Virus record (IMG/VR): IMGVR_UViG_3300024475_000292
Span: 1-20,967 of that record
Length of the DNA stretch: 20,967 nucleotides
DNA from: a virus
Strand: one strand, 5' to 3'
Shown: positions 13,595 through 18,308 of the stretch, one piece after another
Layout: each line of letters starts with the position of its first letter
Numbering within the stretch: the first letter of the stretch is position 1
The notes under the pieces: generated by a model
Database searches by the model: none
Told to the model about the DNA's origin: nothing
Seen by the model: only the letters and a program-made list of their open reading frames with translations
Made by a program: the position numbers and the translations under genes

Positions 13595-15895
13595 ATGGCT
13601 ATTACCCTAACAGAGGTCAACAATACATTAATTAGTATGGTTGATGAGCAGCGAGAAACTAAATCGGTTATGCAAAGCATTGCCGATAAAATTACTGCAT
13701 CTGCTGAACGAGATGAAAAGGCCCGATTAAAGTTTTTAAATAATAAAGGTTCTACCGCTACTGCGGGTAATGTAAGATCGGCAGGCGCTTCTGCATCGGC
13801 AGGAAATTCTGGCGGTTTATTAGCTGGTATGTTAGGTGGCCTTGGTGGAAGAATGCTTGGTGGCGCTGCGGGAATTGCTGGATTAGGGCTAGCACTTCCT
13901 GCTTTCTTTGGCGGTCTCATTGCTGGTGATGCTGCAATGAAGTGGTTAGATGTTAGTATGGATTTCGGCAAACTCAAAGAGGCTGCAATTGGTTTTACTA
14001 ATATCATTCTTGAAATGGATCCAAAAGCATTAGTAGTTCTTGGCGGGATGATGGGTATCTCTGCCGTTGGTGGTACAAAGGCTGCTAAAGGTCTTGGCAC
14101 AATGGGATTTGCTATTAGTGCATTTCTTGGAGGTTTATTAGCAGGTGATCTAATCTTCAGTGGGGTAAAAGCTCTTGGCGGTGATCTAAATTTTGATGGT
14201 ATGAAATCTGCATTAGGCGGATTCTCTGGCATGATTATGTCAATGAAACCAGAAGCGATAACCGTAATGGCTGGGCTTATGGGAATAAGTGCTCTGGCTG
14301 GAATTAAAGGTGACGGCAAATCAGCTGCTATAGCGTTAGGTGCTATGGGCATTGGTATCACTGCCTTCCTAGGCGGTTTACTTCTAGGCGATCAACTTAT
14401 CGAAGGGGCTTCCGCTTTAGGTATGAGCATGGACTTTGGTGGAATGAAGTCTATATTAACTGGCTTCTCTGATTCAATTGGAGCGCTCACACCAGCTGCG
14501 GCAACTGCATTGGTTGGAATTTTAGGCGCTGCTACTGGATTGGCTGTTGTAGGTAAAGGTCCAAAGGCTGCAGCTAATATTGCAGCTAATATGGCAGGCA
14601 TCGGCGCTGGTATCGCTGGATTTATGACAGGTCTGGCAGCTGGTGATGCAGGAATAACATGGCTTCAAAAGACTGCAGGCGCCGACGGCGGTGGTTTAAA
14701 ATCTGCATTTAGTATGTTCAATGATTCTATGGGAGTTTTAGATGAAAAATCTGTAAAAGCTCTTGCTATTATCGTCGGTGCATCAACAGCTGCTGGTCTA
14801 TTGGCTGGAGCTGGAGCAGGTGTATCAGGTGCACTTGGTATTGCTGCAATTATGACCGGCGTTGGTGCTGGTATCTCTGGTTTGTTTATCGGTCTTGCCG
14901 CTGGCGGTAAGATTGTTGATGTAATTAATAAGCTACCAACTGGTGGCGACGGATTTGTATCCGTTATGCGCATGTTTAATGATTCAATCTTAGCAATCAC
15001 ACCAGATGCAATTGATCGTCTTGTCGAAATTAGCAATAAGAAAATTGGCGGTGGTCTATTAAGTCTAGGCGCTGGGATGGCAGCTTTCTTCGGTGCACAA
15101 GGCCTGGGTGAGATTGGTAACATCTACTCAAATGCAAAGGATGCAATCCAAGGTGCTGTAAATTGGATCTTCGGAACCAGCTTTGGCGAAGGTGAGGACA
15201 AAGGTGCAATCTCTCAAATTATCAGAGCACTCGACCCGATAAAAACTGTTGATCAATCACTCATTGAAAAGATGGGATCATTTGGTGATGCAATTAATAA
15301 CTTTGCTATGGCATTTCAAAACTTATCAAATCTGAGTGGCGAAAAAGCATCATCCAATTTATCAAAAATGGTAAAGGACCTAGGTGGTGTTCTCTCAATG
15401 TGGCCACACTTGACTGGTGATAATCCAGAACCATTTGACCCTAGAGGCTGGAAAGCATTTGGTAGAGATAAGATTGATTTTGGTGGTGGTCTTAAAAATA
15501 TTAAACCAGAAAACATTGAAGTTGTATCAGAAGGTATTAATAAATTAAGAATAGCACTTGGTGTTACAGATCCTGTAAAAACACTTGGTGCCGTAGAACC
15601 TAGAATTAAAATGGCTGATGGATCTATTGTTGAATCCATTACCAATGCAGAAGCTGGTGTTAGAAGATCAGGTGGAACATTAACAGAATCAACAGAAGCG
15701 CTTATGCAACAAGATGAAATGTTAAGACATCTAAAAGATATCCGTGATGGGATTAACAGAATGGCTGGTGGAAACGTCTCTATGGACGATAATAGCACAA
15801 CAGTAACAAATAACTCGGGTATTGTGATGCCAAGAGGAGCTACTGTAGATTTACTTGATGGGGGTCTTGCACTTGGAGTAACAGGACCCAGATAA
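13595..15895 (+). CDS. Tail tape measure/hub length-determining protein candidate, with ~80-residue repeats
   Basis: 766 aa. The N-terminus (1-50) is a charged helical segment (MAITLTEVNNTLISMVDEQR). Residues about 70-520 are Gly/Ala-rich and hydrophobic with six copies of a degenerate repeat opened by a glycine-rich block: AFFGGLIAGD at 103, AFLGGLLAGD at 176, AFLGGLLLGD at 257, GFMTGLAAGD at 342, GLFIGLAAGG at 429 and AFFGAQGLGE at 497. Each is followed by F/M-rich helices and a xxPxAxxxLxGxxG block. The hydrophobic runs could enter membranes. The C-terminal 240 residues are mixed helix with Asn/Thr-rich end. Position just after the tail chaperone genes, length and membrane-like segments fit a tape measure protein; T4 gp29 (590 aa) is the functional counterpart, but no sequence identity to gp29 is claimed. 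It is the last gene before the terminator at 15900. Confidence 0.6.
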   Translation: MAITLTEVNNTLISMVDEQRETKSVMQSIADKITASAERDEKARLKFLNNKGSTATAGNVRSAGASASAGNSGGLLAGMLGGLGGRMLGGAAGIAGLGLALPAFFGGLIAGDAAMKWLDVSMDFGKLKEAAIGFTNIILEMDPKALVVLGGMMGISAVGGTKAAKGLGTMGFAISAFLGGLLAGDLIFSGVKALGGDLNFDGMKSALGGFSGMIMSMKPEAITVMAGLMGISALAGIKGDGKSAAIALGAMGIGITAFLGGLLLGDQLIEGASALGMSMDFGGMKSILTGFSDSIGALTPAAATALVGILGAATGLAVVGKGPKAAANIAANMAGIGAGIAGFMTGLAAGDAGITWLQKTAGADGGGLKSAFSMFNDSMGVLDEKSVKALAIIVGASTAAGLLAGAGAGVSGALGIAAIMTGVGAGISGLFIGLAAGGKIVDVINKLPTGGDGFVSVMRMFNDSILAITPDAIDRLVEISNKKIGGGLLSLGAGMAAFFGAQGLGEIGNIYSNAKDAIQGAVNWIFGTSFGEGEDKGAISQIIRALDPIKTVDQSLIEKMGSFGDAINNFAMAFQNLSNLSGEKASSNLSKMVKDLGGVLSMWPHLTGDNPEPFDPRGWKAFGRDKIDFGGGLKNIKPENIEVVSEGINKLRIALGVTDPVKTLGAVEPRIKMADGSIVESITNAEAGVRRSGGTLTESTEALMQQDEMLRHLKDIRDGINRMAGGNVSMDDNSTTVTNNSGIVMPRGATVDLLDGGLALGVTGPR

Positions 15896-15962: not shown

Positions 15963-16877
15963 TTATGATGCTGCCAACTTAGCAAAGTATGACATTGTGT
16001 CTTCTTCCTCTTCTCCAGAGTCATCTGTCTGAGAGATTGACTCCTCAAGAGTCTGTGCAGGCATTTCACGATGCATAGGCGCTGGCGCTTCTGCATTCAT
16101 TTGTGATTGTTGCTGCATTGTGGGTTGAGACGTATTACCAAGAACACTGTCCAGTTTCTTTTTCAATTCATCATATGATTTGAATGTTGCTGGGTCAGTA
16201 TACTCTCCAAGATTGTGGAGAGAGTTGTAAATACCTTCAAGATATTCATCATCCTCACTTAGAGTGGATGGAGATGCAAACTCTGATTTGTCATAGTTGC
16301 GATAACCTTCAACTTGACGAATTTTTAGTTTGAAATCAGCACCAGCCCAGAAGTCGAATGGGTTGATTGGATCTTCATCATCAAATTGTGGCTGCATTGC
16401 ATCCATAACTTTATCAAAGATTTTCTTACCATATTCATAGATGAATACTTTACCTTCGTTTGCAGGATTGCTTGGGTCAGATACGACCAAAACATTTGAT
16501 GCATAGTGAAGACGGCGCTTCTGATCACGTGCTTGTTTACGTGAAGGTGACTTATCGTCATCAACCAAGTTCCAGAGATATGAATTCAACTCACCAACTG
16601 GATCTTCCTGACCGATTGTTGTGAGAGATTTTTCAATATACCATTTACCAGTCGGGCCCTTAAAGCCGTGATCCCAGTATTTTACGAATGGTAGGTCTTG
16701 ACCTTCACTTGCTGGAAGGAAGCGCAGAATAGCGTAGCCATTTCCTGCTTTGTCTACTGTAGGACGCCACTTGCGTTCATCTTTGTAGCTCTTGTTATTG
16801 CCACCACCTGCGGCTTCGGCTGCGGCTACGAGTTTATCAACAGAGCCACGATTACGTTTTAGATTTGCAAAAGACAT
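15963..16877 (-). CDS. gp32: Single-stranded DNA-binding protein gp32
   Basis: 304 aa, as in T4 (301 aa). gp32 coats ssDNA in replication, recombination and repair and represses its own translation. The N-terminal LKRNRGSVDKL matches the basic LAST-type cooperativity region. The core has RFLPASEGQDLPFVKYWDHGFKG (split here as RFLPASEGQ and LPFVKYWDHGFKG), KWYIEKSLTTIG, ASNVLVVSDPSNPANEGKVF and IRQVEGYRNYDKSEF. The C-terminus is acidic (SGEEEEDTMSYFAKLAAS), the region that recruits partner proteins. Only H70 aligns with a zinc ligand; the protein has no cysteine at all, so the T4 zinc site is lost, as in cyanophage gp32 that I recall. The Shine-Dalgarno AAGGAA is at 16889-16884. The leader carries a phased repeat array described separately. 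It follows gp33 after 94 nt. Confidence 0.92.
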   Translation of the reverse strand: MSFANLKRNRGSVDKLVAAAEAAGGGNNKSYKDERKWRPTVDKAGNGYAILRFLPASEGQDLPFVKYWDHGFKGPTGKWYIEKSLTTIGQEDPVGELNSYLWNLVDDDKSPSRKQARDQKRRLHYASNVLVVSDPSNPANEGKVFIYEYGKKIFDKVMDAMQPQFDDEDPINPFDFWAGADFKLKIRQVEGYRNYDKSEFASPSTLSEDDEYLEGIYNSLHNLGEYTDPATFKSYDELKKKLDSVLGNTSQPTMQQQSQMNAEAPAPMHREMPAQTLEESISQTDDSGEEEEDTMSYFAKLAAS

Positions 16878-16952
16878 TTGTATTTCCTTGTATTGCGTTG
16901 TATGTTTTGTATTGCAGTGTATATCATTGTATCATACATCAAAGAAGATGCA
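16878..16952 (-). promoter_or_regulatory. gp32 mRNA leader: hairpin plus phased ATACAA repeats, putative autogenous operator
   Basis: Reading the minus strand, a TGCATC-ttcttt-GATGTA hairpin (16952-16935, one G-U pair) is followed by six ATACAA-like units with first bases 10, 10, 9, 10 and 10 nt apart, ending directly at the ATG. Plus-strand TTGTAT copies are at 16878, 16888, 16898, 16907 and 16927, with a variant GTGTAT at 16917. The hairpin loop UUCUUU can pair with the Shine-Dalgarno AAGGAA (16889-16884, one G-U). This resembles in layout the T4 gene 32 leader, where a 5' pseudoknot nucleates cooperative gp32 binding over an unstructured region. Confidence 0.6.
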
Positions 16953-16958
16953 CACCAC

Positions 16959-16966
16959 TATATATA
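16959..16966 (-). promoter_or_regulatory. Late-like promoter element for gp32
   Basis: Minus-strand TATATATA, 7 of 8 matches to TATAAATA. It would place the transcript start near 16953, right at the base of the leader hairpin. A second option is an extended -10-like TGATACAAT at 16935-16927, which would remove the hairpin from the transcript. Moderate evidence only. Confidence 0.35.
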
Positions 16967-16971
16967 CGTTT

Positions 16972-17196
16972 TTACTCAAAATCTAGCTGATTCCCACGTG
17001 GAATCAAATTTAATTGCATTGCTTCGGCTTCAAGCTTACCGAGGATTGGAGCAGAGATAAACTTCTTGCAATCTTCTGGATCAATGCCATGCTTTTCGCA
17101 TAGGTCAAGCACAACATCCATATAAGAATTCTTTTGTTCAATCACTGTCTTTTCGATAAGCTTTGCGAATTCAGCTTTTGTTAAAAACTCACTCAT
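16972..17196 (-). CDS. gp33: Late promoter transcription accessory protein gp33
   Basis: 74 aa, shorter than T4 gp33 (112 aa). gp33 bridges RNA polymerase to the sliding clamp gp45 and lets gp55-directed polymerase start at TATAAATA promoters. The sequence MSEFLTKAEFAKLIEKTV, SYMDVVLDLCEKHGIDPEDC, then KLEAEAMQLNLIPRGNQLDF is the compact form I recall from cyanophage-type phages, with a core helix pair and a short hydrophobic C-terminus suited to clamp contact. It sits between gp32 and the 371-aa gene; in T4, gene 33 is also close to gene 32. It overlaps the upstream gene by 4 nt (ATGA). It is the natural partner of the late octamers found elsewhere in the window. Confidence 0.7.
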   Translation of the reverse strand: MSEFLTKAEFAKLIEKTVIEQKNSYMDVVLDLCEKHGIDPEDCKKFISAPILGKLEAEAMQLNLIPRGNQLDFE

Positions 17197-18308
17197 TTGT
17201 TGAGCACCCTCAATATAATGGTATCCTTATTAATGCGACCATTGATGTTGTCAACAGTCTTTGTTGTTAGTGTTCCCCAAAACTTATTAATAGCTGTGGG
17301 AGTTTTAGTTTGAAAAACAGATAGGTGTTCTTCTGGTTTACGCAAACGAATACCGCGTGAACGTTCTGCATCAATGCCATATACTGTGCTGCCTTTGACT
17401 TCAAGGCCACCAGAGCGTTCTGTGATGTATTCGGTTAGCATTCTTGTTTTCACATTAAAAGTATAGAGCCTTGCAGCACCAACAATCAATGCGGGGTTGA
17501 TAGACGCCAACTTATATTCAGCTGAGTCTTTCAGATAGTTTAGTTTCAGAACCTGTTTGTCTGCAGACTTAACACGAGGCTTTGTAGGTTTACGTGTCGC
17601 TTTCTTTGACATAACATATTTCTCGGCATCATCAACAATCGTTGAAACAATCTTGAGAAACTGTTTGCGCTCTGGAACTGACCAATGAGAATAAGCTTCG
17701 ACAAGATCATCCGACTTGTCATTAACCAATTCATTCATTTCATTCAAAAGAGGTGTGTAATAGTCAAGAACGTGCTTAGCAGAGATTGCATTCAACTCTG
17801 CTTTAACCATTTCATTATACACGGAATAGTTCTTCCAGTCAACAAAAATATCACCAGTACCAAACATATCTAAAATTTCTTCAATACACGCGATGAATTC
17901 AGATGATTTTTCTTTGACAATCTCCATAGGAGACTTTTTGTTCAAAACAACAACAGCGTCTTCTTTCAGTTCTGCTTTCTTGTTTGCAGCTTCACGCACA
18001 CGCGCGATATATGATTCAATATGCTTTGTGCCATTCCACTTAGCGTCCCACTCATTACCGAGGTTCTTCCAAGCGATAGTAGCGCAAACGCCAGCTTCGC
18101 CACCATACATATAGTCAGGAGCAGACAACAAGAGCGTCCGTTCCTTTCCAGTGTAGTTGGACTTGATGTAGTCCTTTAAGACAACAGCGATATCTTTCTT
18201 GTCAACATCCATACGAATATGAGACGCAAACCAGTGAAAAGAATCCGTTGGCGCGGCAGCAATACCCGTTTTGATTTTACGAGGAAGTATCTTCTTTTTC
18301 TTCGCCAT
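17193..18308 (-). CDS. Conserved T4-like phage protein of unknown function, 371 aa
   Basis: Not assignable to a known enzyme. The N-terminus is very basic (MAKKKKILPRKIKTG). The N-terminal region (about 20-110) has HWFASHIRMDVDKKD and many aromatic residues. A helical middle (130-235) leads to a basic linker (ATRKPTKPRVKSADK, about 237-251). The C-terminal domain (about 252-371) has LKYLKDSAEYKLASINPAL-type strands: KLNYLKDSAEYKLAS, IVGAARLYTFNVKTRMLTEY, GLEVKGSTVYGID and NGRINKDTIILRVLNK. This C-terminal pattern is one I recall from hypothetical proteins of marine T4-like phages. The basic segments suggest nucleic acid contact. Co-transcription with gp33 and gp32 suggests a role in DNA replication, repair or transcription; this is inference. 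It overlaps the upstream membrane-protein gene by 32 nt and gp33 by 4 nt. Confidence 0.8.
   Translation of the reverse strand: MAKKKKILPRKIKTGIAAAPTDSFHWFASHIRMDVDKKDIAVVLKDYIKSNYTGKERTLLLSAPDYMYGGEAGVCATIAWKNLGNEWDAKWNGTKHIESYIARVREAANKKAELKEDAVVVLNKKSPMEIVKEKSSEFIACIEEILDMFGTGDIFVDWKNYSVYNEMVKAELNAISAKHVLDYYTPLLNEMNELVNDKSDDLVEAYSHWSVPERKQFLKIVSTIVDDAEKYVMSKKATRKPTKPRVKSADKQVLKLNYLKDSAEYKLASINPALIVGAARLYTFNVKTRMLTEYITERSGGLEVKGSTVYGIDAERSRGIRLRKPEEHLSVFQTKTPTAINKFWGTLTTKTVDNINGRINKDTIILRVLNK

Follow-up and report, generated by a model that had tools for sequence, protein, structure and literature searches.

A phased ATAC array behind a 5′ hairpin in gp32 leaders of marine T4-like phages: a candidate translational operator

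The gp32 leader in the viral DNA analysed here (the window, 20,967 nt in full) contains an array of ATACAA-like units that is real and beyond chance. Such arrays are specific to gp32 genes, have a period of about 10 nt and hold the Shine-Dalgarno sequence (SD) in register. They are not private to the phage of the window and are widespread in many marine T4-like phages. The best reading of the compared leaders is that they represent a distinct, widespread marine operator type, composed of a 5′ hairpin and a phased ATAC array.

The gp32 leader in the window

The leader is the reverse complement of positions 16878–16971 (Table 1), and all letters described earlier are present. In mRNA sense, it reads AAACG-TATATATA-GTGGT-GTGCATC-TTCTTT-GATGTAT-GATACAATGATATACACTGCAATACAAAACATACAACGCAATACAAGGAAATACAA-ATG. 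The gp33-like gene contains a terminator-like inverted repeat, TTGATTCC-ACGTG-GGAATCAG (16987–17007), in its 3′ end; this repeat lies 20 nt upstream of the late box and could limit read-through into gp32. Amid the tail genes, a 766-aa ORF (13595–15895, plus strand) had no PHROG match and is repetitive and tape-measure-like. The window as a whole gave no match by DNA similarity against a phage collection.

Table 1. Features at the gp32 locus of the window.
Feature	Position	Strand	Basis or remark
gp32	15963..16877	−	PHROG phrog_224, E = 3e-109
Array unit 6, ATACAA	16878..16883	−	sequence; abuts gp32 ATG
Shine-Dalgarno AAGGAA	16884..16889	−	sequence; most relatives arranged alike
Array unit 5, ATACAA	16888..16893	−	sequence; continues into Shine-Dalgarno
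Array unit 4, ATACAA	16898..16903	−	sequence
Array unit 3, ATACAA	16907..16912	−	sequence
Array unit 2, ATACAC	16917..16922	−	sequence
Array unit 1, ATACAA	16927..16932	−	sequence
TACAAT, −10-like hexamer inside array unit 1	16926..16931	−	aligns with TATAAT of relatives
Hairpin GUGCAUC-UUCUUU-GAUGUAU, 7 bp, 6-nt loop	16934..16953	−	fold; stem kept in L001
TGTGCA, weak −35-like hexamer, 17 nt before TACAAT	16949..16954	−	TGTACA in relatives L009, L017, L019
Predicted late transcription start, sixth base after the box and first hairpin-stem base	16953	−	T4 late-promoter geometry
TATATATA, candidate T4-type late promoter	16959..16966	−	matches TATAAATA in 7/8 letters; full TATAAATA at this position in relatives
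gp33-like late-promoter transcription co-activator gene	16972..17196	−	phrog_254, E = 3e-19; stop codon directly upstream of the leader
371-aa ORF, before gp33	17193..18308	−	phrog_11903, family without known function

The earlier note had described six ATACAA-like units with spacings of 10, 10, 9, 10 and 10 nt up to the gp32 ATG, and this was borne out, with five ATACAA and one ATACAC. With a unit definition that was chosen after seeing the data, a six-unit chain arose in none of 5000 dinucleotide shuffles of the leader and a five-unit chain in six. The self-identity of the leader at lag 10 was 0.61 (p = 0.0006 for any lag). The SD stands where the decamer has CGC, so that ATACAACGCA becomes ATACAAGGAA. 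The 53-nt 3′ part of the leader folds at −0.4 kcal/mol, leaving an unstructured repeat stretch before the AUG. In an alignment, unit 1 (ATACAAT) falls on the TATAAT −10 box of the relatives L002 and L009, and the leader proper may therefore hold five units, not six.

The array across viral gp32 leaders

We fetched 80 viral loci with gp32 55–77% identical and read their leaders. Leaders of named phages were read one by one as well, since the exact motif is too short for blastn to find. The nearest relative (L001, gp32 77% identical) aligns along the whole array and has one extra 11-nt unit. The 10-nt period recurs in this relative and in many other lineages, and L001 retains both the array and the stem, as had been expected of close relatives. 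The notion of a "counted" operator is rejected by the same alignment, since relatives differ by whole units (six in the window, seven in L001). Whole-unit gain or loss would also follow from neutral tandem duplication in an A+T-rich leader, and longer blocks are indeed repeated in some leaders (L069, L294, L415). Nevertheless, the word and the period recur across widely divergent gp32 lineages, the spacers differ among units of one leader, and the arrays are strictly limited to gp32, which makes neutral duplication very improbable.

An exact-motif scan of about 2.9 million viral contigs (IMG/VR) for ATACAAYGCAATAYAAGGA returned 104 places. Eighty of these matches were fetched, and 78 lay directly upstream of a gp32 start codon, the gp32 lineages concerned being very diverse. 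Of the other two, the first was at the end of a contig and the second (L100) fell in unrelated sequence. In a scan of IMG/VR for four units with free spacers at an exact period of 10 nt, 12 of 80 loci were gp32 leaders, and three more were recognized by eye. At exact periods of 11 and 9 nt, gp32 was found in 6/80 and 1/80 loci, respectively, among the matches listed. The marine array type has several ATAC-type units 10–11 nt apart directly before gp32 and the SD in the last or next-to-last unit, and the leader in the window fits this type.

A motif-unbiased set was also compiled from leaders chosen solely through protein similarity; it was thinned to 34 leaders at 75% identity and left out the window. 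Pairs of ATAC-type units occurred 29 times at 10 nt and 23 times at 11 nt, compared with 2.4 and 2.2 in shuffles, and harmonics appeared at 21 nt (16 vs 1.8) and 31 nt (10 vs 1.3); related leaders share ancestry and are not independent, so the p-values are optimistic, and E-values and shuffles overstate independence. At least two unit pairs at 10 or 11 nt were present in 53% of gp32 leaders and in 0/474 leaders of other genes on the same contigs, and at least one pair in 84% and 0.8%, respectively, the "other gene" classes here, in the hairpin comparison and in the count for the second leader word below containing a few gp32 genes missed by the pattern, which weakens, and does not strengthen, the contrasts.

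The mean spacing of the units in gp32 leaders, 10.0 nt, is near the DNA helical repeat. Together with the harmonics at 21 and 31 nt and with a promoter overlapping the 5′ end of the array in many relatives, it would suit an array acting at the DNA level, that is, units one helical turn apart forming an iteron-like operator for a DNA-binding protein in transcription or replication. However, the spacing across gp32 leaders is loose (8–12 nt) and becomes more variable from one end of the array to the other (sd 0.9, 1.3 and 1.9), so errors accumulate, the phase is not kept, and the case for helical phasing is weakened. Moreover, the units continue up to the ATG and include the SD in register, and the accompanying hairpin has an excess of G-U pairs on the mRNA strand (see below). 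We therefore consider a DNA-level array rather improbable.

Several leaders showed further peculiarities. In many gp32 leaders, a second word, ATTATGAATAANGTGGAYAA, follows a TATAAT box at a distance of about 10 nt and stands just before the ATAC units (L714–L792, L020, L082, L109, L131). By pattern, it lay upstream of gp32 in 72 of 79 fetched viral-contig matches, and the remaining seven were also gp32-like. In these lineages the word appears as a 20-nt 5′ element in place of the hairpin, and it is similar to a DnaA box (TGTGGATAA) in its 3′ half. The L382 leader runs through an array, the first gp32 codons and a second array to the annotated start, and looks like a tandem duplication of the leader and gene start. 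In L294 (Phage C48C1), ATATTTTAGTTT occurs twice at 12 nt, and in L415, ATACTCCGTTT occurs twice at 11 nt; both leaders still end in an ATAC unit with the SD.

The 5′ hairpin

Taken alone, the hairpin in the window is not beyond chance. The 77-nt leader folded no better than its shuffles (z = 0.0), and a hairpin of at least 6 bp formed in 81% of shuffles of its 5′ part, so the support for the hairpin has to come from the relatives. The window has both the late box and the hairpin, and L001 keeps the stem; the loop of L001 is CUAACA vs UUCUUU in the window, and the two stems differ only by a one-sided change, G-U to A-U. Since no other kind of stem change occurs in the clade of the window, the window hairpin rests on its position and on L001.

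Among gp32 leaders at large, a hairpin directly followed the late box in 64% of 25 leaders, while the share was 10% among 98 late-box leaders of other genes (p = 1e-9), according to a stem search that halts at the first failing stem length and thus understates stems, both gene classes being treated alike. The hairpin often begins at the sixth base after the box. An 8-bp stem was 100% paired with 12 double changes, and a 7-bp stem was 92% paired with 23 double changes, each matched in 0/500 shuffles. Covariation, with changes on both sides of the stem, was clean in two clades other than that of the window, one with TAGGACTA-GAAA-TAGTTCTA in many variants and one with a 7-bp stem around GAGATT. 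Read on the mRNA strand, the stems contained 40 G-U vs 14 A-C oppositions (p = 0.0005), an excess that a DNA palindrome would not explain and that points to a hairpin acting as RNA. The −90 to −40 part of gp32 leaders also folded better than shuffles (mean z −1.14). In the related leaders, selection on the hairpin at the RNA level is evident from these patterns of substitution and pairing. Folding against shuffles gave no significant hairpin in the relatives L012, L029, L043 and L051, and a search of Rfam returned no family at the curated threshold; the sole hits were miRNA models that scored well under their gathering cut-offs. In L233, L269, L143 and L171, small genes that begin like signal peptides (MKRIITAVFLFL...) also have a hairpin right after a late box.

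The last 42 nt of gp32 leaders folded worse than shuffles (mean z +0.37, 45 leaders). Such openness, along with a hairpin where the mRNA is predicted to begin, would also be expected of a leader that serves translation and stability and has no repressor. In that case, the hairpin would guard the late mRNA from 5′-end-dependent decay and the A/C-rich repeats would keep the SD open for a high output of gp32, a protein required in large amounts. Yet openness requires neither a 10-nt period nor the ATACAAYGC word, and other genes on the same contigs have no array. We regard a leader of this kind as unlikely, though as the strongest of the alternatives weighed here.

In the scheme of the earlier note, pairing of the loop UUCUUU with the SD would form a nucleating pseudoknot, and each of the six decamers would seat one gp32 monomer. 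Both the pairing and all six units can be traced in the window, but neither the hairpin nor the loop-SD complementarity is beyond chance in this sequence alone: a hairpin whose loop also pairs at least 6 nt with the SD region was obtained in 4.7% of shuffles of the 5′ part. The loop is not conserved (TTCTTT in the window, CTAACA in L001) or kept in other relatives, and neither L001 nor almost any other leader has the pairing. Among 31 hand-picked hairpins, the window had the only loop whose pairing with the SD region exceeded 4 nt, and in a wider automatic scan of 136 distinct hairpin-bearing leaders, 4 loops paired at least 6 nt with the last 22 nt. We thus reject the loop-SD nucleating pseudoknot; as the number of units also varies and the T4 gp32 site size is 7 nt per protein (PMC10484735), very little credence is left for the combined scheme. 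Inspection of the window and cyanophage leaders by eye for a T4-like pairing between the loop and its 5′ flank showed it to be possible in P-RSM6 only; such pairing is not conserved.

Promoters and transcript start

From the box and its geometry (Table 1), we infer a late promoter and its start site in the window. The same geometry of box, predicted start and hairpin was found in L103, L105, L111, L119, L296 and L460, and the leaders of relatives have TATAAATA or CTAAATA boxes. The motif NATAAATA is the late motif of cyanophages, whose middle genes are reported to have overlapping early and late promoters (PMC2984593). The gp32 leaders of relatives are similar to the middle genes of cyanophages S-PM2 and Syn9 in combining a late box with sigma-70-like hexamers: TGTACA or TTGACA lies 17 nt before TATAAT-like boxes and overlaps the hairpin. 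An overlapping early promoter at this place is likely in the relatives. It is doubtful in the window, where the sigma-70 part is weak and a sigma-70 scan gave no promoter match that passed. If the early promoter were used, the transcript would start inside the array and would not include the hairpin.

Comparison with known gp32 leaders

The gp32 proteins of T4 and RB69 repress their own mRNA via a 5′ pseudoknot and an unstructured repeat stretch over the SD (PMC535899). The leader in the window resembles the T4 gene 32 operator (T4, T2/T6, RB69) in that a gp32 leader has a 5′ structure followed by more than 40 nt of unstructured repeats that include the SD (PMC535899). However, the T4-type operator has an H-type pseudoknot and UUAAA/UAAA repeats, whereas the window has a plain hairpin, with no flank-loop pairing by eye, and ATACAA/ATACAC decamers without UUAAA. 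As these two defining features are absent, the leader in the window falls outside the T4-type operator as defined. The repeat sequence does differ from that of T4, as the earlier note stated, with no TTAAA in the window leader. In the leaders of T6, HY126 and Roth04, a pseudoknot with pairing of the GACC:GGUC type was recognized by eye.

The closest counterparts are gp32 leaders of marine T4-like phages (Kyanoviridae S-MbCM100 and P-RSM6, HTVC008M and many IMG/VR contigs), which, like that in the window, have a late box, a hairpin near the predicted start, ATAC units and the SD in a late unit. They differ among themselves in the number of units (about 2–7), the spacing (8–12 nt) and the lineage-specific stem and loop. 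Vibrio phage R11Z (Schizotequatrovirus) likewise has ATAC units with a 10-nt period and the SD in a unit, but it belongs to the Straboviridae and no hairpin was predicted in its 5′ part. With the array the common form in marine T4-like gp32 leaders and present also in R11Z, the idea of an independent solution in the window is not supported. The proteins differ as well: 74 of 80 marine gp32s (L001–L080) have no cysteine at all, whereas the six T4-type gp32s checked have cysteines at the zinc-site positions, with the full motif in five. In the gp32s of S-RIM44 and R11Z, cysteines are clustered at different spacings.

The proposed operator

We consider it reasonably probable that the leader is a bipartite translational operator of gp32, T4-like in its working and built of other parts, with gp32 as its own repressor, as suggested by the layout and the gene. 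The late promoter would start the mRNA at a 5′-terminal hairpin; in some lineages, an overlapping early promoter would start it just downstream of the hairpin. Behind the hairpin would follow an unstructured A/C/U-rich stretch of about 50 nt with ATAC-anchored units about 10 nt apart and the SD inside one of the last units. Once free gp32 exceeds the exposed single-stranded DNA, it would bind cooperatively along the array stretch, with either the hairpin or the array itself as the nucleation site; bound gp32 would cover the SD and the AUG and stop its own translation. We infer gp32 as the ligand, and repression as the outcome, from the same layout. Several observations count against this operator: the 10-nt period vs the 7-nt site of T4 gp32, the loose spacing, the variable unit number, a hairpin that is not significant in several relatives and no better than shuffles in the window, and the absence of the H-type pseudoknot and UUAAA repeats of T4.

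One gp32 monomer per unit is possible; the T4 site size does not support it, though these gp32s have diverged. Less probably, the gp32 of these phages, which lacks the T4-type zinc site, might read its own mRNA as an ATAC register of about 10 nt, one protein per unit, with the ribosome-binding site lying within a unit. If true, this would amount to an RNA filament phased by sequence and formed by a protein that is regarded as having no sequence preference in binding.

No description of ATAC-array gp32 leaders was found in the literature searched, which covered only a minority of subscription journals. In marine T4-like phages, the leader word can serve to mark gp32 leaders. Since the T4 work, it has been an open question how gp32 distinguishes its own mRNA from other single strands, and the study of divergent T4 relatives has been called for (PMC535899, PMC3014915). 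The leaders vary naturally in how many units they have, in spacing and in their 5′ structure, and offer material with which to test what part sequence, register and structure play in the specificity.
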